A DNA stretch of 37,867 nt from Desulfurellaceae bacterium. Its GTDB lineage: Bacteria; Campylobacterota_A; Desulfurellia; Desulfurellales; Hippeaceae. The translations under genes and the position numbers were made by a program. The first letter of the stretch is position 1. Each line of letters starts with the position of its first letter. Positions 25,465-37,867 of the stretch are shown piece after piece. The notes under the pieces were generated by a model. That model was not told where the DNA came from and ran no database searches. It was given only the letters and a program-made list of their open reading frames with translations. The stretch covers positions 1-37,867 of the forward strand of contig WFQQ01000073.1 of NCBI GenBank assembly GCA_015486965.1, read 5' to 3'.

Positions 25465-27507
25465 TTAACTTGCCTCTTTAAGTTCTTTTTTTAGCTCTTT
25501 TATCTTTTTTTCTATCTCCTCCACTCTCTCTGCTTTGCATATTGGGCACTCTGCATGTTCTCCAGCTATATATCCATGTATGGGACAGATGGAAAATGTT
25601 GGTGTTATAGTCAGATATGGAAGCCTGTAGTTCTCAAAGATGTTTTTTATCAGCAGTTTTATGCTTCTTGTATCCGTTATTTTTTCTCCGACAAATATAT
25701 GCAGAACAGTTCCGCCTGTGTAGCTTGATTGCAGTTCATCTTGCAGCTCTAAAACTTCAAATACATCGTCTGAATAGTTCACTGGTAGTTGGGAAGAGTT
25801 TGTGTAGTAAGGTCTTTTTGTTCCAGCTGTTATTATCTCTGGATATCGTTTCTTATCCAGAAGGGCGAGCCTGTAGCTAACTCCCTCTGCAGGTGTTGCC
25901 TCGAGATTGTAGTTGTTTCCTGTCTTTTGTTGAAACTCCACAAGTTTTTCCCTCATAAATCTCAATGTTTTCAATGCGAATTCCTGTCCAACTTGTGAGG
26001 TTATTGGCTCTCCAAGAAGGTTGAGACATGCCTCATTCATTCCAACGAGCCCTATGGTGGAAAAATGATTTTTCCAGTACTCCCCGAACCTTTCCTTGAT
26101 CGTTGTTAGATAGAACTTTGAATATGGGTAGAGACCTGAATCTGTAAAACCTTCCAACACCTTTCTTTTGATTTCCAAACTCTCTCTTGCAAGTTCCATG
26201 AGTGAGGTTAGTCTTGTGAAAAACTCGTCTGTTGGTCTATCGCTTGGCTTTGAGAGAAACGCTATTCTTGGAAGGTTTATCGTAACTACACCTATAGAGC
26301 CTGTTAAAGGGTTTGAGCCAAACAATCCTCCGCCCCGAGTTCTCAACTCCCTTGTGTCTAACCTTAGCCTGCAGCACATTGAACGGGCATCTTCTGGCTT
26401 CATGTCGGAATTGATGAAATTTGCGAAGTAGGGTATGCCATATTTTGCAGTGGCTTGCCATAGGGGTTCTAAGTTTGGATTATCCCAGTCGAAATCCTTT
26501 GTAATGTTGTATGTGGGAATGGGGAATGTGAATACCCTTCCATCTGCATCGCCCTCACTCATAACCTCCATGAACGCTCTGTTTATCATATCCATCTCTT
26601 TCTGGAACTCTCCGTAAGATGAATTCACCGTTTTTCCACCAATGATTACAGCTTGGTTTTGCATAAACTGTGGAACTTTCAGGTCTAATGTGAGGTTTGT
26701 GAACGGGGTTTGAAAACCCACTCTCGTGGGAACATTGATATTGAAAATAAACTCTTGCAGCGCCTGTTTAACCTCATAGTAAGAGAGGTTGTCATAGGCC
26801 ACAAAAGGGGCAAGGTATGTGTCAAAATTTGAAAATGCCTGTGCGCCTGCGGATTCACCCTGAAGGGTGTAAAAGAAGTTTACTATCTGCCCCAAAGCAC
26901 TCCTGAAATGTTTTGCTGGTCTGCTTGCTACTTTTCCCTTTACACCCCTGAAGCCTTTTATGAGTAAGTCTTGCAAGTCCCACCCCACGCAGTAAACGCT
27001 TAAGGAGTTTAAGTCGTGAATATGGAAATCTCCGCTTAAGTGGGCATCCCTAATCTCTTTGGGATAAATCTTATTCAACCAGTATGTTTTTGTTATGGCA
27101 GATGAGACATAGTTATTCAGCCCTTGAAGGGAGTAGCTCATGTTTGAGTTCTCTTTCACTTCCCAGTCAAGTTTGTCCAGGTAGTTGTCAACCAATTCCA
27201 CATCGGCTTTGTTTTTCAGTTTTCTAATTTGTGCGTGCTGTTCCCTGTAGAGAATGTAAGCTTTTGCCGTTTTCTTGAATGTTGAGTTTAAAAGAACCTC
27301 TTCAACTATATCCTGTATCTCCTCAACTGTTGGGTTTCTATCCCCTATGAGCCTATACGCTAAGTCCAGAACCCTTATGGTGAGTCTTTTTGCTGCCTCA
27401 TAATCGAATTCCCCTGTTGCCTTGCCAGCTTTAGCTATGGCATCTGTAATTTTTGAAGGGTTAAACTCAACAACCCTTCCGTCCCTTTTAATAATTGATG
27501 AGAACAC
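25465..27507 (-). CDS. nrdD: Class III (anaerobic) ribonucleotide reductase large chain, lacking the glycyl-radical domain
   Basis: A 680-residue protein. An ATP-cone (about 1-95, IIKRDGRVVEFNPSKI) senses ATP/dATP, followed by the ten-stranded barrel of class III reductases with SVYCVGWDL and RSMCCRLRLDTREL, the two regions that hold the active-site cysteines in T4-type NrdD. A C-terminal zinc ribbon has CPIHG and CPIC. It then ends in a charged helix (RVEEIEKKIKELKKELKEAS) where the RVxGY glycyl motif should follow; that motif is encoded by the next gene. It reduces ribonucleotides without oxygen or B12. The start is a GTG at 27507 with AGGGGG five bases upstream. A cobalamin riboswitch precedes it. 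Confidence 0.93.
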   Translation of the reverse strand: MFSSIIKRDGRVVEFNPSKITDAIAKAGKATGEFDYEAAKRLTIRVLDLAYRLIGDRNPTVEEIQDIVEEVLLNSTFKKTAKAYILYREQHAQIRKLKNKADVELVDNYLDKLDWEVKENSNMSYSLQGLNNYVSSAITKTYWLNKIYPKEIRDAHLSGDFHIHDLNSLSVYCVGWDLQDLLIKGFRGVKGKVASRPAKHFRSALGQIVNFFYTLQGESAGAQAFSNFDTYLAPFVAYDNLSYYEVKQALQEFIFNINVPTRVGFQTPFTNLTLDLKVPQFMQNQAVIIGGKTVNSSYGEFQKEMDMINRAFMEVMSEGDADGRVFTFPIPTYNITKDFDWDNPNLEPLWQATAKYGIPYFANFINSDMKPEDARSMCCRLRLDTRELRTRGGGLFGSNPLTGSIGVVTINLPRIAFLSKPSDRPTDEFFTRLTSLMELARESLEIKRKVLEGFTDSGLYPYSKFYLTTIKERFGEYWKNHFSTIGLVGMNEACLNLLGEPITSQVGQEFALKTLRFMREKLVEFQQKTGNNYNLEATPAEGVSYRLALLDKKRYPEIITAGTKRPYYTNSSQLPVNYSDDVFEVLELQDELQSSYTGGTVLHIFVGEKITDTRSIKLLIKNIFENYRLPYLTITPTFSICPIHGYIAGEHAECPICKAERVEEIEKKIKELKKELKEAS

Positions 27508-27590: not shown

Positions 27591-27605
27591 CGAACCTCCC
27601 GTTCG
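27591..27605 (-). promoter_or_regulatory. Regulatory hairpin 3' of the cobalamin aptamer
   Basis: On the minus strand CGAAC and GTTCG pair around GGGAG. The position, a few bases after the P1 stem closes, is where cobalamin riboswitches place the hairpin whose loop docks with loop L5. The purine loop overlaps a Shine-Dalgarno-like GGGAGG, so it may also be the expression platform. The docking partner was not resolved. Confidence 0.5.
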
Positions 27606-27611
27606 TTTTTT

Positions 27612-27794
27612 GTCGGGCAAGTCTCCTGACTCGGCTTCATCCTACTCCCCTCAGCCTTCCCATCGGGCGACCCTTCTGCTTAAAAGAGCCTCTCCCAACA
27701 GTGGCTGCCCCTTTTTAAAGGGCTAAAGAGGGTTTCGTCAGCCTCACAGTTGCGGGGGCAGTGCCGGATTTTCACCGGACTTCCTTAACCCGAC
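27612..27794 (-). ncRNA. Cobalamin riboswitch aptamer
   Basis: On the minus strand the RNA starts and ends with the P1 arms GTCGGG and CCCGAC. Between them are the hallmark blocks in order: AAGGAAG and GGTGAAAATCCGGC, then GCCCCCGCAACTGTGAGG, GCAGCCACTG, GGGAGAGGCTC, GATGAAGCCGAG and the B12 box GTCAGGAGACTTGCC. This is a textbook class I cobalamin aptamer. It lies about 100 bases upstream of nrdD and downstream of its own promoter, so it controls nrdD, the glycyl-radical module, nrdG and btuB. Adenosylcobalamin binding normally represses. Whether control acts on translation or transcription is unclear; no obvious intrinsic terminator is seen on this strand. Confidence 0.96.
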
Positions 27795-27801
27795 TAAAAA
27801 T

Positions 27802-27830
27802 TTTATATAATTATTTTTAATAGTTGTCAA
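27802..27830 (-). promoter_or_regulatory. Sigma-70 promoter of the riboswitch-nrd-btuB transcript
   Basis: On the minus strand a perfect TTGACA (27825-27830), a 17-base spacer and TATAAA (27802-27807) precede the aptamer by eight bases. The -35 box lies inside the last codons of pgeF (Val-Asp-Asn), so the new transcript starts immediately behind the upstream operon. Confidence 0.8.
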
Positions 27831-33299: not shown

Positions 33300-33328
33300 A
33301 TTATACGAAAAGATTTTTCTCTTAACAA
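33300..33328 (-). promoter_or_regulatory. Promoter of the glcD-glcF-galU-serS-pgeF operon
   Basis: On the minus strand TTGTTA (33323-33328), a 17-base spacer and a perfect TATAAT (33300-33305) stand eight bases before the glcD ATG. Transcription would start at or within a few bases of the start codon. Confidence 0.65.
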
Positions 33329-33533
33329 GGGGAAGTATGTCCTAAAAAAGAAAGAAATAATCAGCTTTCTATTTGCAGAACTATGAAGTTGGGTTATAGA
33401 GAGCTATGGTTCAAGGTTATAATGGAGTGTGGCCAGAGCTTGTGTAGCAGGTTAGGTTGTTTATAAGCTTTCATCTTGGGCTGCCTCTGTTATTCTTTTG
33501 TGAGTCAGTGTTTAAATTACATTGAGGGTAATG
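33329..33533. other. Intergenic stretch without a supported gene
   Basis: This A+T-rich stretch holds no ORF with a plausible start and composition. A plus-strand TATAAT at 33418-33423 lacks a good -35. It could be the upstream part of a plus-strand transcript leading into the structured segment at 33537-33655, but nothing proves this. Confidence 0.4.
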
Positions 33534-33536
33534 CGT

Positions 33537-33655
33537 TGCGGAAATCTGGAGTCGTCGAAGGCGATTTGGGTAAGGGTTGAGAGCCCGGACCAGGTCCCTG
33601 CTTGTTAGTCGAACTAAAGGGCGAGCCTGCGGAAGTAGGTGAAGAGTTCCGCACC
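33537..33655 (+). ncRNA. Unidentified structured RNA-like segment next to the restriction endonuclease gene
   Basis: About 120 bases, clearly more G+C-rich than the flanks, fold into a closed multibranch. UGCGGAA (33538-33544) pairs with UUCCGCA (33648-33654). Inside are short hairpins: AGUCGUC/GGCGAUU with loop GAA, GGGUU/AGCCC, GGAC/GUCC, UAGU/ACUA, and GCCUGC/GUAGGU with a GGAA (GNRA) tetraloop. Several pairs are G-U on the plus strand and would be A-C mismatches on minus, so the RNA is probably plus-strand, opposite to the neighbouring genes. UUCCGCA could also pair with a second UGCGGAA at 33629-33635, giving an alternative fold. It matches no RNA family I can recall (not tRNA, tmRNA, RNase P, SRP, 6S or riboswitch). 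Confidence 0.5.
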
Positions 33656-33665
33656 ACACCTATTC

Positions 33666-34532
33666 CTAATCATAATATCTCCTCAGTCTTTCCGTTAATA
33701 ATCTTTCAAGGTTTCTATAAGGGGTTGATTGTTGTTGTCTGAAAAATTCCAAAATTAATCTGAGAGTTTCTCTATTTCTAAACAAAACGTGGATTATCCC
33801 TTCTTCCCATAACTTGTCATTTTGCAGGATTTTCCTCCAGTATCTGATTTCTAATTCTTTAATTTCTTCAAAGCTTTCTTCTGGATTTTCGTCAAAATTT
33901 ATTTCTGGTAATTCCGGCAGTTCATCTTTCCATCTTTTGAGCCACTGTATCAAATCGTCCCATACTTGAGGGCTATCGAAATACTCAAACAACTCACGAC
34001 CATAGAATAGATGAAGTTCCACACCATAAAAATCAGAAAATTCTCTAAGTTTCTCAATATAGAAATTCTGATTCTTCCTTAAATCTGGGTCTATAAAATA
34101 CATAATACCAATCAAATTCCCGCCATGGGAGTTATGTAGGACTTCTAATTTTTTCTCAAAATTGTTTATTTGACCTCTTTTCTTTGTAGAGTCATGATCA
34201 TCCCTTACTTTTTGCTCAATGAAATAATATGTGTTTTCATTAGTAAAATACTGGTCAATAGAAAGTGTTTCTCCCTCACTATTTCTGATATTTTTAGGAA
34301 GATTTCTATAACCTAAATCTTCAATAATTTCTGTGATTAGTTCTTCCATTGCATCTCCAAACCTTATTTCATGAGATTGTAAGAGATGTTGTAGTATTTT
34401 AGCACCTGGTTTAGTAGGTCTAAACAAGCCTATGAAACGCTCAGGTCTTTCGGCCAATTTTTTCAAAAGATCTATTTTTTCTCCTTTAAAAATGTGTCTA
34501 TTTAAAATCTCTTTAAATCTCTCATAGTTCAT
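33666..34532 (-). CDS. Type II restriction endonuclease, PD-(D/E)XK fold, probable GANTC specificity
   Basis: A 288-residue protein. A PD-(D/E)XK active site is visible: Asp93 in LSIDQYF, then Glu106-Gln-Lys108 in YYFIEQKVRDDHDS, spacing typical of the fold, followed by STKKRGQINNF. An N-terminal helix GDAMEELITEIIEDLGY supplies the usual core-helix glutamates. It ends the cassette methyltransferase - EVE/PUA-nuclease - this gene, and its start overlaps the previous stop by ATGA. Because the methyltransferase is CcrM/M.HinfI-like, the expected recognition sequence is GANTC (as for HinfI and HpyAIV); specificity is inferred from the partner. Codon and base use are more A+T-rich than in the operons to the left, suggesting acquisition. 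Confidence 0.75.
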   Translation of the reverse strand: MNYERFKEILNRHIFKGEKIDLLKKLAERPERFIGLFRPTKPGAKILQHLLQSHEIRFGDAMEELITEIIEDLGYRNLPKNIRNSEGETLSIDQYFTNENTYYFIEQKVRDDHDSTKKRGQINNFEKKLEVLHNSHGGNLIGIMYFIDPDLRKNQNFYIEKLREFSDFYGVELHLFYGRELFEYFDSPQVWDDLIQWLKRWKDELPELPEINFDENPEESFEEIKELEIRYWRKILQNDKLWEEGIIHVLFRNRETLRLILEFFRQQQSTPYRNLERLLTERLRRYYD

Positions 34533-35584
34533 ACTACCACCTTTAGATCTATTTGCTTTGTACTACTATTAAAGGAATATTTGATCAATCGTATAGGACG
34601 TTCTCTATATCTTTCTCTGCCTTTAACAAAATCTATAACATCTTTATTAAAATTATAGGCAATACCAACTGGATGAACTTGAAGAGGGGTTTCTGCCTTG
34701 GTTTCTATGAACCATTTCTCATAATCAATGAGACGCTGTAATTCACCCATAGTAAATGTAGATGACTTTAACTCTAAGATTTGATACCACACTATTTCAT
34801 CCCCATCATATTTTATTAAAAGAATGTCTATTTCCTTCCGTGAGCCTGTTGGGACATAATGAATAAACTCATCATAATCTCCAAAAATCTCTTTGTGTTT
34901 TCCATCAGCAAAATCATCTAACATTAAAGATTCTAAGACTGCTTCATAATGTAATTGTCCAGTTCTATCCTCTTTAAAGTTTAAAGGTAACTCTTGTTTA
35001 TTTATATTTGTTAAACCTAACCCTACTCTTTTAGAGAGATAATCGGGTGGTGCTGCTTCAGTAAGATTATTGGCAACAAACAACCTGTTTATGATTTCTG
35101 CTTCTAATTTTGTAATACCAATGCACGCGTGTACTCCAACGGCATCCCCTCTGCTTTGTTGCAATGTCCAGATTTTTCCTTTGTCTTTTAAAATCCAAAT
35201 TTCATCTATATTTATTGGATTTTTAAAATTATGCAAGCATTCGAATTCTATTCTAAATGGTAAATTCTCTTTTACATAAATTGCCCCTTGATATAATGAA
35301 CTAGGATCGTAATATGCTCTTGAAGTGGCTTTATAAATCCCCAAGAGCTCCGGTGGATGCTCTTTACTACCCATCCTGTTAAAATAAATAACATCACCAG
35401 GCCGTATTCCTGAAACTTCAGATATTGCGCCTTGTCTTGCTTTAGGGATTATTTCTCCCTTTTTGTAGGTTTTGCTATCTTTCTTAGCGATTCCATCATT
35501 AATCCCCGCAATTCCCACCTTATTATGTTCATTCCATGTGTTGTCATTTACTATGAATATTAAATGTCTTACCATCTTACTCAC
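34529..35584 (-). CDS. Predicted EVE/PUA-like reader plus C-terminal PD-(D/E)XK nuclease
   Basis: A 351-residue two-part protein. Residues about 1-150 resemble EVE/PUA-like base-reading domains: RHLIFIVNDNTWNEH at the start, then ISEVSGIRPGDVIYFNR and LLGIYKATSRAYYD. Residues about 205-350 resemble NucS/DUF91-like nucleases: Glu214 in a helix, Asp253 in RKEIDILLIKYDGDE, Glu271-Leu-Lys273 in QILELKSS, then Gln283 in MGELQRLIDYEKWF. EVE-family domains often bind modified cytosine or adenine in DNA, so a nuclease that senses modification state is plausible. It overlaps the methyltransferase by 8 bases and the restriction gene by 4, so all three are co-translated. Its role beside a complete restriction-modification pair is unknown; family assignments are by eye. 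Confidence 0.65.
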   Translation of the reverse strand: MSKMVRHLIFIVNDNTWNEHNKVGIAGINDGIAKKDSKTYKKGEIIPKARQGAISEVSGIRPGDVIYFNRMGSKEHPPELLGIYKATSRAYYDPSSLYQGAIYVKENLPFRIEFECLHNFKNPINIDEIWILKDKGKIWTLQQSRGDAVGVHACIGITKLEAEIINRLFVANNLTEAAPPDYLSKRVGLGLTNINKQELPLNFKEDRTGQLHYEAVLESLMLDDFADGKHKEIFGDYDEFIHYVPTGSRKEIDILLIKYDGDEIVWYQILELKSSTFTMGELQRLIDYEKWFIETKAETPLQVHPVGIAYNFNKDVIDFVKGRERYRERPIRLIKYSFNSSTKQIDLKVVV

Positions 35585-36548
35585 CTAAATTGAGATATTC
35601 CTGGATTTTTCTTTGTTTTTTCTGCGATATGTTTAAATTAATGTTTAATGGTTTTTGAAATCTCTTTTTAATACCTCCTACATATTTTGGATTGATTTCT
35701 ATCATTATAAAATTCCTGTTAAGTGCTTTAGCAATATATCCAGTTGTCCCTACGCCTGCTACAGGATCCAAAATAACATCTCCCTCTTTTGTAGAAGTTA
35801 ATATAACTCTTTTCAAAAGCTCAATAGGTTTTTGGGTAGAGTGTAATTTTTTACCTTTTTCATCTTTTAATCGCTCTTTCCCATTACATATCGGGAGAAC
35901 CCAAACATTAGCACCTACTTTTCCTATTCCAAATTTCTTTGCCCATTCTTTATTAAATGTGTATTTCTTTGCTTTTTTATCTTTTACTGCCCAAATTAAT
36001 GTTTCTGTTGCATTTGTAAATCTAACTCCCAACCAATTAGGCATAGGATTTGTTTTTACCCAGTGAACATCGTTAAGTATCCAAAACCCCAAATCCTGCA
36101 TAATTTTACCAATTCTAAAAATACTATGATATGTGGCAATCACCCAAATAGTAGCATTGGGTTTCATTACTCTTTTAAGCTCTGTTAAGATATTTTTAAT
36201 GAAATTATCATATTCTTCAAATGATTCAAATTTATCCCAATCATCATTTACGGCATCAACTTCTGTTTTGACGGTCCAACGCCTTAGTTTTTTATTTGGT
36301 AGTTGCAGAAAATAGGGTGGATCCATGAAGATCATATCTACAGATTCTTCAGTTAATTTTTTAAGAACCTTTAAGGCATCACCTAGAATCACCCTGTTTA
36401 AAACACCATCTAAGGAATATTTCTTAATATCAGGTTTATCTTCAATCACCAAATCATCGGTTATTTTTAGAGCATTTTCGTTCATGGTCTTACCTAACGT
36501 TTCACTACTAAATAACTTTTCTTGAATTCTAACATCTCCGTTTGTCAT
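35577..36548 (-). CDS. DNA adenine-N6 methyltransferase, CcrM/M.HinfI-like (predicted GANTC)
   Basis: A 323-residue beta-class methyltransferase. Motif IV DPPYFLQL (from residue 76) precedes motif I DPVAGVGTTG (261-270), the beta-class order. Long stretches match the CcrM/M.HinfI pattern: VDAVNDDWDKFESFEEYDNF, WVIATYHSIFRIG, QDLGFWILNDVHWVKTNPMPN and HSTQKPIELLKRVILT. That group methylates adenine in GANTC. Oddities are an N-terminal extension of about 45 residues, no long C-terminal domain of the CcrM type, and Val-Ala in motif I where Phe-x is usual. The ATG has a strong AAGGAGG seven bases upstream. The partner endonuclease lies two genes downstream, so it is protective, not a lone cell-cycle enzyme. 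Confidence 0.88.
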   Translation of the reverse strand: MTNGDVRIQEKLFSSETLGKTMNENALKITDDLVIEDKPDIKKYSLDGVLNRVILGDALKVLKKLTEESVDMIFMDPPYFLQLPNKKLRRWTVKTEVDAVNDDWDKFESFEEYDNFIKNILTELKRVMKPNATIWVIATYHSIFRIGKIMQDLGFWILNDVHWVKTNPMPNWLGVRFTNATETLIWAVKDKKAKKYTFNKEWAKKFGIGKVGANVWVLPICNGKERLKDEKGKKLHSTQKPIELLKRVILTSTKEGDVILDPVAGVGTTGYIAKALNRNFIMIEINPKYVGGIKKRFQKPLNINLNISQKKQRKIQEYLNLGE

Positions 36549-36591
36549 GTATATTCCTCCTTATTTGGTTTTTAAAGGGTGTGATATAAAT

Positions 36592-36603
36592 TGTTATATA
36601 ACA
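36592..36603. promoter_or_regulatory. Perfect palindrome upstream of the methyltransferase gene
   Basis: TGTTATATAACA is a perfect 12-base palindrome 44 bases upstream of the methyltransferase start, in A+T-rich sequence that could hold -10 elements on either strand. It could be an operator for a regulator of the cassette. No controller gene is seen in the window, and A+T-rich palindromes also arise by chance. Confidence 0.3.
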
Positions 36604-36618
36604 TGTGTAGATAAAAAA

Positions 36619-36730
36619 CGGTTTGCAAGGTAAACTGCGGATGAGTGTAAGCGAGACGTTTATCCCCTTGTCATCAGGCCTAGATAAAGGCAAGGTGTAA
36701 AGCACCGCAGAGTCGTGGCGGAAGGATGAT
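36619..36730 (+). ncRNA. Second unidentified structured RNA-like segment, upstream of the methyltransferase gene
   Basis: A G+C-rich island in A+T-rich surroundings. On the plus strand it folds as: a hairpin CGGUUU/AAACUG (36619-36637), or instead an outer stem CUGCGG/CCGCAG (36635-36640 with 36705-36710); a 10-pair hairpin GGAUGAGUGU/ACGUUUAUCC (36639-36665) with loop AAGCGAG; a stacked hairpin CCUU..GCCU/AGGC..AAGG (36666-36695); and GGUG/CACC (36694-36706). The 10-pair hairpin uses four G-U pairs that fail on the minus strand, so the RNA is probably plus-strand, antisense to the flanking genes. It ends AGUCGUGGCGGAAGG, recalling GGAGUCGUCGAAGG in the first segment. No known family was recognised. 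A weak 71-codon minus-strand frame crosses it but looks non-coding. Confidence 0.5.
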
Positions 36731-36740
36731 GATATTTCTT

Positions 36741-37867
36741 TCATTTGGTTTCCCCCTTTTTAGGGCTTTCACACCTAAGATCAGGACACCTCAATATTTT
36801 TGAATCTCTAAAGTATTTTAAGAACTTTCCACATTTAGGGCATAAAAGAGCCTCGTGAAGATCACGTACTGCTCTACAAAAAGATTTAACTTCCTCAATG
36901 GATAAGTTTTCTATTTCTGGGTTATCGTGAGAAAGTAGATTTCCCATAAATGAGGTGGCTCTCAAATTTTCAAATTTCCCCAAAAGTTCATTCTTTAATT
37001 CATTTTCTTTTAATTTCTCTTTTATTCTTTTTTCTGCAGGGTCAAATAAGTCTATTACTGTATATTTTCCACTTTGCTTATAAGGAATATGGACCTCTAA
37101 TTGCTCGCAAATTTCTTTTAATAACCACTCTAAATATACCCGACATTGGTTACCGGCTCCAGTTTTGTCATGGTTTCTCAACTTATCCTGTATCTTTTCC
37201 CATTGGAGCTTAAATGATTTGATTATTGGACCAGTATCTACACTCCACGCTATAATTTCCATATCTTTGAAATTGCCTTGTACATTTAATGCTCTTTGCA
37301 TATTTACAAGTTGTTCATACCAAATCCCATCATGAGTAGTAACAATAAGCTGATAATCTCCGAACTCTTTTAGCAGTAGTTCGGCTAGTTTATGTCTATG
37401 GGAGGCATCTATTGTAGTTACTACATCATCCAAAATAACCAGCGGGCAGCCCTTGTTAAACTTTTTAATAAATGAGAGAAATATACACAACCCTAAAGAA
37501 TCGAGATGCCCTTCACTTGTTAAAGCTCTAGGATCTTCTCCAGATCGTCCGAACGATTTAATCTTCAACTCGGTGCTTGCCCTTCTGCCAAATGCAACCA
37601 TAAGTCTTATATTTCTGTGAGGTTCGTTGGGATGGAGCATTAAGTAAAATTTTTCTATGTCTCCTTGTATAGTATTGTATATCTCCTGAATTTTTGATTT
37701 TTTTGTATCTGAAAATGTGGTATATATTTTCTCAGAGTATTCTAAATATCTTTGATAGATTCGAAGTTCAGAACTAACTTTTAGTAAATCTTGCACCTTA
37801 CTCATTACCTGTTCGATTAAACGAATAACTTCTAATATTTTCTTTTCATCGTCTGTAAGCCCTATTT
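36741..37867 (-). CDS. SMC/RecF-like ATPase with C-terminal helical domain and zinc ribbon, 5' end beyond the window
   Basis: The open frame continues without a stop past an internal ATG at 37805 to the right edge, so this is the C-terminal part of a larger ATPase. Numbered from that ATG, an ABC-type signature (LTSEGHLDSLGLCIFLS, about 95-111) and Walker B with D-loop (PLVILDDVVTTIDASHR, 121-137) show the second half of an SMC/RecN-like head, with VTTHD as the switch histidine. The N-terminal part seen is helical, probably coiled coil; Walker A must lie outside. After the head comes a helical region (about 215-320, with YLEWLLKEICEQL and NLLSHDNPE) and a zinc ribbon with CPKCGKF and LRCPDLRC. 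Such ATPases occur in anti-phage and DNA-repair systems; the exact system cannot be named. It reads toward the restriction-modification genes. Confidence 0.8.
   Translation of the reverse strand, partial: IGLTDDEKKILEVIRLIEQVMSKVQDLLKVSSELRIYQRYLEYSEKIYTTFSDTKKSKIQEIYNTIQGDIEKFYLMLHPNEPHRNIRLMVAFGRRASTELKIKSFGRSGEDPRALTSEGHLDSLGLCIFLSFIKKFNKGCPLVILDDVVTTIDASHRHKLAELLLKEFGDYQLIVTTHDGIWYEQLVNMQRALNVQGNFKDMEIIAWSVDTGPIIKSFKLQWEKIQDKLRNHDKTGAGNQCRVYLEWLLKEICEQLEVHIPYKQSGKYTVIDLFDPAEKRIKEKLKENELKNELLGKFENLRATSFMGNLLSHDNPEIENLSIEEVKSFCRAVRDLHEALLCPKCGKFLKYFRDSKILRCPDLRCESPKKGETK

Follow-up and report, generated by a model that had tools for sequence, protein, structure and literature searches.

The window, by which we mean the whole 37,867-nucleotide stretch analysed, carries near its end a series of minus-strand genes and two structured elements. 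From beyond the contig end, the order is an SMC/RecF-like ATPase gene, a first element (site A below), a DNA methylase gene, an EVE-domain gene, an endonuclease gene, a second element (site B) and a glcD-like gene of ordinary metabolism. Only the 3' part of the ATPase gene is present (36741..37867, cut by the contig end); its product matched PF02463 under the cut-off and gave an LmuB-like match in PADLOC, and is a putative defence protein. The genes between the two elements span 36548 to 33666 and encode a CcrM-like adenine DNA methyltransferase (35577..36548; PF01555, 190 bits; CcrM model, 341 bits, under its cut-off of 830), an EVE-like domain protein (34529..35584; weak PF01878 match just below cut-off; UPF0310 structures 2p5d and 1wmm) and an HpyAIV-family type II restriction endonuclease (33666..34532; NF045832, 266 bits against a cut-off of 160; PADLOC REase_II). 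Given a CcrM-like methylase and an HpyAIV-family endonuclease, the three genes probably form a GANTC restriction-modification set. The two enzymes resemble those of HinfI/HpyAIV-type (GANTC) type II systems, from which the window differs in the EVE-domain gene in the middle and in the arrangement as a single cassette between putative attC sites. EVE domains are known from other systems to bind modified bases, and the protein encoded here (34529-35584), between methylase and endonuclease, might conceivably act in methylation sensing.

The ATPase stop and the methylase start are separated by a 192-nt gap that holds a G+C-rich island (45.5% G+C, against 33.4% for 33666-37867; the rest of the window has 40%). 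The initial annotation had placed a structured, RNA-like element at 36619-36730, with a 10-pair hairpin containing four G-U pairs. The element is real, G+C-rich and favours the plus strand, but its coordinates fall about 23 bases short, since an R' box and L' arm occupy 36596-36618; the hairpin lies at 36639-36665 and has 3 G-U pairs rather than four. Compared with shuffled sequences, the element gave z -2.14 on the plus strand and -0.32 on the minus strand, a modest excess of stability given that 4 of 200 shuffles folded equally well. The second element (33530-33660) likewise prefers the plus strand (z -1.78 versus -0.77), so the preference proposed as common to both was borne out. A GAGUCGU...GGAAG-like end, also proposed as shared, was rejected as homology because the GAGTCGT copies lie at non-corresponding places, at 33549 in the L'-side half of site B and at 36710 in the 5' extension of site A. 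When the two elements are aligned together, the genuine homology is the whole attC architecture on the minus strand. Searches of Rfam 15 at gathering and permissive thresholds returned chance matches only at either element, with none above the gathering threshold.

A family of attC-like sites in bacteria and archaea

BLAST of the 36619-36730 element over 61 genomes recovered only a short core, some 25 bases long, around GGCAAGGTGTAAAGCACCGCAGAG. The family was reached via a relative in a genome of the same genus (G007) and then with a degenerate pattern, which, applied to the set of bacterial and archaeal genomes, matched 24 stretches. These came from WOR-3, Aerophobetes, Thermodesulfobacterium, Calescamantes, KSB1, Desulfofervidaceae, Thermodesulfovibrionales, Archaeoglobus, Methanosarcinales, Methanophagales, Thermoplasmata, DHVE2 and others. 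One match, in Lentzea, was unsupported by the covariance model described below and was taken as chance. Viral contigs, searched for exact words taken from the window and the family, gave no matches, nor did the plasmid and phage records searched. Read on the strand opposite to that of the initial annotation, the family consensus is ACTCTGCGGTGCTTCGCACCTTGCCCCTATCGGGGTC - ACTTAACA - GG.GGATATGTGG...CACATATCC..GG - AACGTTAGGC. The boxes of integron attC sites are RYYYAAC (R'') and GTTRRRY (R'); the ACTTAAC of the family matches the former and its GTTAGGC the latter. The boxes of intact relatives conform to both motifs, and a crude automatic count found AAC in 48 of 70 sites and GTT in 58 of 70. 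The attC layout is described in PMC8946536.

We built a covariance model (R1) on 18 relatives, excluding both window elements. Its matches in the window were exactly two, sites A and B, which at E 0.001 were also its sole hits in the window's genome; at the same threshold 51 of the 61 genomes lacked any site. All 22 genomes reached via the pattern have at least one site, with a maximum of 18.

Site A with its 5' extension covers 36596..36729 in the canonical direction on the minus strand (R1, 59.5 bits, E 5.5e-15). Alignment to R1 and comparison with L126, a complete relative sharing its stem type, place its attC core, from R'' to R', at 36596..36675. By sequence and alignment, the R'' box (36669..36675) is damaged, reading GATGACA against CTTAACA in the family. 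The R' box, GTTATAT (36596..36602), carries the G^TT crossover predicted from its sequence and from the crossover point of relatives, and is the predicted 5' boundary of the restriction-modification cassette. Between the ATPase gene and the attC core, alignments and pair counts delimit a conserved 5' extension with two small hairpins (36676..36713). Site B with its extension covers 33526..33663 on the minus strand (R1, 26.9 bits, E 4.6e-6); its R'' is CTAAC (33604-33608), and its R' region, GCATTAC (33529-33535), is damaged and has lost the GTT. Thus site A retains GTT next to an R'' of GATGAC, and site B retains CTAAC with no R' GTT. Both sites fold weakly under DNA parameters, the L''/L' stem being weak in each, and they are spaced 2.93 kb apart. 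About 220 non-coding bases between site B and the glcD-like gene (33300-33525) contain CCTAAC and ATAACC words on the minus strand and could represent a decayed further site; the covariance search of the window returned no site there.

At E up to 0.1, 72 sites were collected within the fetched stretches. Adjacent sites lay on the same strand in 38 of 38 pairs, forming tandem arrays in bacteria and archaea alike. The longest ORF between neighbours ran in the sense direction in 29 of these 38 gaps; in the other 9 it was antisense, or there was none of note. The genes enclosed are mutually unrelated and include methylases and NucS-like, STAND NTPase, ApeA-like, HEAT-repeat and redoxin proteins. 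A second two-site array in the genus of the window (L145:2996-5704, in G007) has a DNA methylase gene between its sites, so methylase cassettes recur in the genus.

In the 72-row alignment we counted 187 both-sided changes against 63 in shuffles (equalled in 0 of 500), and pairing fell from 89% to at most 49% when the structure was slid, counts that lean towards structure because the alignment was fitted to the model. The L''/L' stem shows both-sided changes in 8 of its 9 pairs, with 90% of cells paired. Under DNA parameters, 50 of 56 sites folded more stably as the bottom strand (p 1e-9). This known bottom-strand bias of attC sites accounts for the plus-strand preference of the window elements, which is then not evidence of RNA. 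In some sites (L027:5040-5175, L047:3950-4084 and L048:6768-6908) the L'' and L' arms belong to different stem types, for example GGATATGTGG with CAGATACGCTC. Such sites resemble mosaics that arose inside the hairpin, a result that integrase crossover at R' would not give.

Cassette breakpoints, integrases and alternative readings

Homologous cassettes in different genomes allowed us to locate their ends. In a first set, cassettes of L126 (WOR-3), L047 (Aerophobetes) and L148 (the genus of the window) all begin at the TT of R', with junctions ...CCAAACG|TTAAGTGAAATCG, ...AAATGA|TTAAGTGAAATCG and ...CTCTTT|TTAAGTAAAAT, respectively. A second, independent set also begins at the TT of R' (L131, ...AACGAG|TTGTCCGAAATCAGCC; L141, ...AAGCCG|TTGTCCGAAATCAGCC). 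The sequence to the left of the breakpoints is unrelated. The two independent sets represent five genomic places. The TT breakpoints provide the strongest single argument for integron-type site-specific recombination, and the family members are most likely recombination sites. For the cassettes of the window itself, we found no further copy whose 5' end could be seen.

We therefore consider it very probable (roughly 0.9) that the element at 36619-36730 belongs to an integron attC site and that this site and the one at 33526-33663 delimit a cassette of several genes in an array lacking an integrase, or CALIN. A CALIN is defined by two or more attC sites spaced by less than 4 kb, with no intI alongside; the window has two sites within this distance and no intI beside them. 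The suggestion in the initial annotation that the elements might be scars of a mobile element was thus right in kind, the mobile units being integron cassettes and the elements their recombination sites. The family shares with attC sites (59-base elements) and CALINs the R''/R' boxes of its intact members, an imperfect stem, a variable terminal part, bottom-strand bias, same-direction arrays, the G^TT crossover and, without intI, two sites at a distance below 4 kb. It differs in that many members have a two-hairpin 5' extension and that the window sites are damaged; the window cassette also has three genes, whereas attC cassettes usually have one.

According to this model, a cassette on the minus strand would consist of its gene or genes, the 5' extension and then R''-L''-hairpin-L'-R'. 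The bottom strand (plus in the window) would fold when single-stranded, an IntI tyrosine recombinase, acting in trans or before its loss, would cleave R' at G^TT, and the cassette would be excised or inserted as a whole. We infer IntI as the agent, uptake of cassettes from the environment, and a present weakening of both window sites by core-box damage. If both arrived as cassettes, this would explain why a restriction-modification set stands beside a putative defence ATPase, and two unexplained RNA-like islands would become recombination sites.

In the window's genome (about 94% complete, this contig stopping at 37867) no IntI scored over the family cut-off. A genome of the same class has a broken IntI (G022:C14:32253-33195; 240 bits) with an internal stop and the IntI-specific segment, and one of the same genus has an IntI fragment that includes the start of this segment (G005:C162:4-282); the two broken-integrase stretches are those listed as L051 and L157. 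A true IntI is present in a Thermodesulfovibrionales genome (G066). Since one core box is damaged in each window site, the array looks like a decaying one that formerly received cassettes through an integrase since lost or now acting in trans.

The alternative that fares best, though we regard it as improbable, is that the sites are substrates of another tyrosine recombinase, Xer-like and without the IntI segment, and hence integron-like without being integrons. Recombinases lacking the segment score above ordinary XerD in four site-bearing genomes (G007, G062, G072 and G081), and G005:C129 has a fragment of such a recombinase at about 1 kb from two sites. Archaeal Xer-type enzymes are, however, expected in any case, true IntI genes or relics occur in G066, G022 and G005, and the sites have the architecture and the crossover of IntI substrates.

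The initial annotation had also raised a regulatory RNA or an RNA part of the defence system, and a structured plus-strand RNA serving the restriction-modification/ATPase system would fit a fold that beats shuffles on that strand (z -2.14), in a G+C-rich island located in a defence cassette. We find this reading very hard to sustain: the relatives flank unrelated genes in tandem arrays, cassettes break at the TT of R', the fold bias is that expected of attC bottom strands, and neither element matches Rfam. The view that two such elements mark one restriction/SMC system, with restriction or SMC-like ATPase genes always adjoining, was not supported either, as the neighbours in other genomes are unrelated and no homologue of the window restriction-modification cassette was seen beside the ATPase gene on an archaeal contig that shares it (see below). 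Conversely, neither an endonuclease homologue in G024 (54%) nor an ATPase homologue in G079 (44%) has a family site nearby, so that these genes are not tied to the element. A non-autonomous, MITE-like repeat copied between genes by chance would explain short copies scattered over many genomes, but is already contradicted by a stem kept while its sequence varies, by neighbouring copies all in one direction, and by genes that move with their sites and break at the box rather than at element ends.

An ATPase cassette shared with an archaeon and the 5' extension

Over 1180 bases, the ATPase gene and its extension share 95.5% DNA identity with a contig from a DHVE2 archaeon. There, the ATPase gene adjoins a different, textbook-like attC stem, followed by two small ORFs that, by eye, look like HicB and HicA. 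The HisRS encoded on the DHVE2 contig has 1wu7, presumably the Thermoplasma enzyme, as its best solved relative (399 bits, against at most 154 for bacterial-looking entries), which makes a bacterial misbin of the contig unlikely. We take the identity as sequence evidence that a bacterium and an archaeon have recently shared an integron cassette gene in nature, and as pointing to a cross-domain cassette pool.

The kind of array is already known. A 2022 study reported archaeal integrons, most of them CALINs, that carry restriction-modification and toxin-antitoxin genes and show evidence of cross-domain exchange (Ghaly et al., PMC9668308), and CALINs have been listed for vent organisms (PMC10295459). 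The present lineage resembles the archaeal integrons of Ghaly et al. in the prevalence of CALINs, cross-domain sharing and cargo. It differs in spanning both domains, chiefly through lineages that are known from hot environments, and in the near-identical cassette gene that links a bacterium with a DHVE2 archaeon.

Comparison of L142:1547-1664 with 36596-36729 of the window showed the same ATPase and extension followed by different attC stems, with the switch just past the conserved extension. This suggests that stems were exchanged by homologous recombination through the shared extension. Because the ATPase cassette has different stems in the window and in the archaeon, we also considered the extension itself as a recombination point; the TT breakpoints of two other cassettes disfavour this as the main mechanism, and homologous recombination is the simpler account.

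The conserved extension lies 5' of R'', between gene and attC, and comprises two hairpins, the first of which is paired in 90% of cells with letters and shows both-sided changes in 5 of 5 pairs. It is clear in a minority of the listed sites, a share that is inflated because the extension served as bait in the search that opened the family. It is not part of the textbook attC, and we found no description of a conserved extension 5' of R''; as such it offers a concrete, testable feature. It is tempting to speculate, although we hold this only tentatively, that a distinct and widely shared attC lineage with the extension exists in bacteria and archaea of hot environments, in which the extension plays a functional role in the cassette, such as host-independent termination, mRNA 3' end protection, or assistance to recombination or stem exchange as an accessory site.

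Elsewhere in the window, a cobalamin riboswitch (27599-27808, minus strand; 92.4 bits) lies just upstream of an NRDD gene (25465-27507) for an anaerobic (class III) ribonucleotide reductase, an arrangement that may serve to switch between reductases according to B12 supply.
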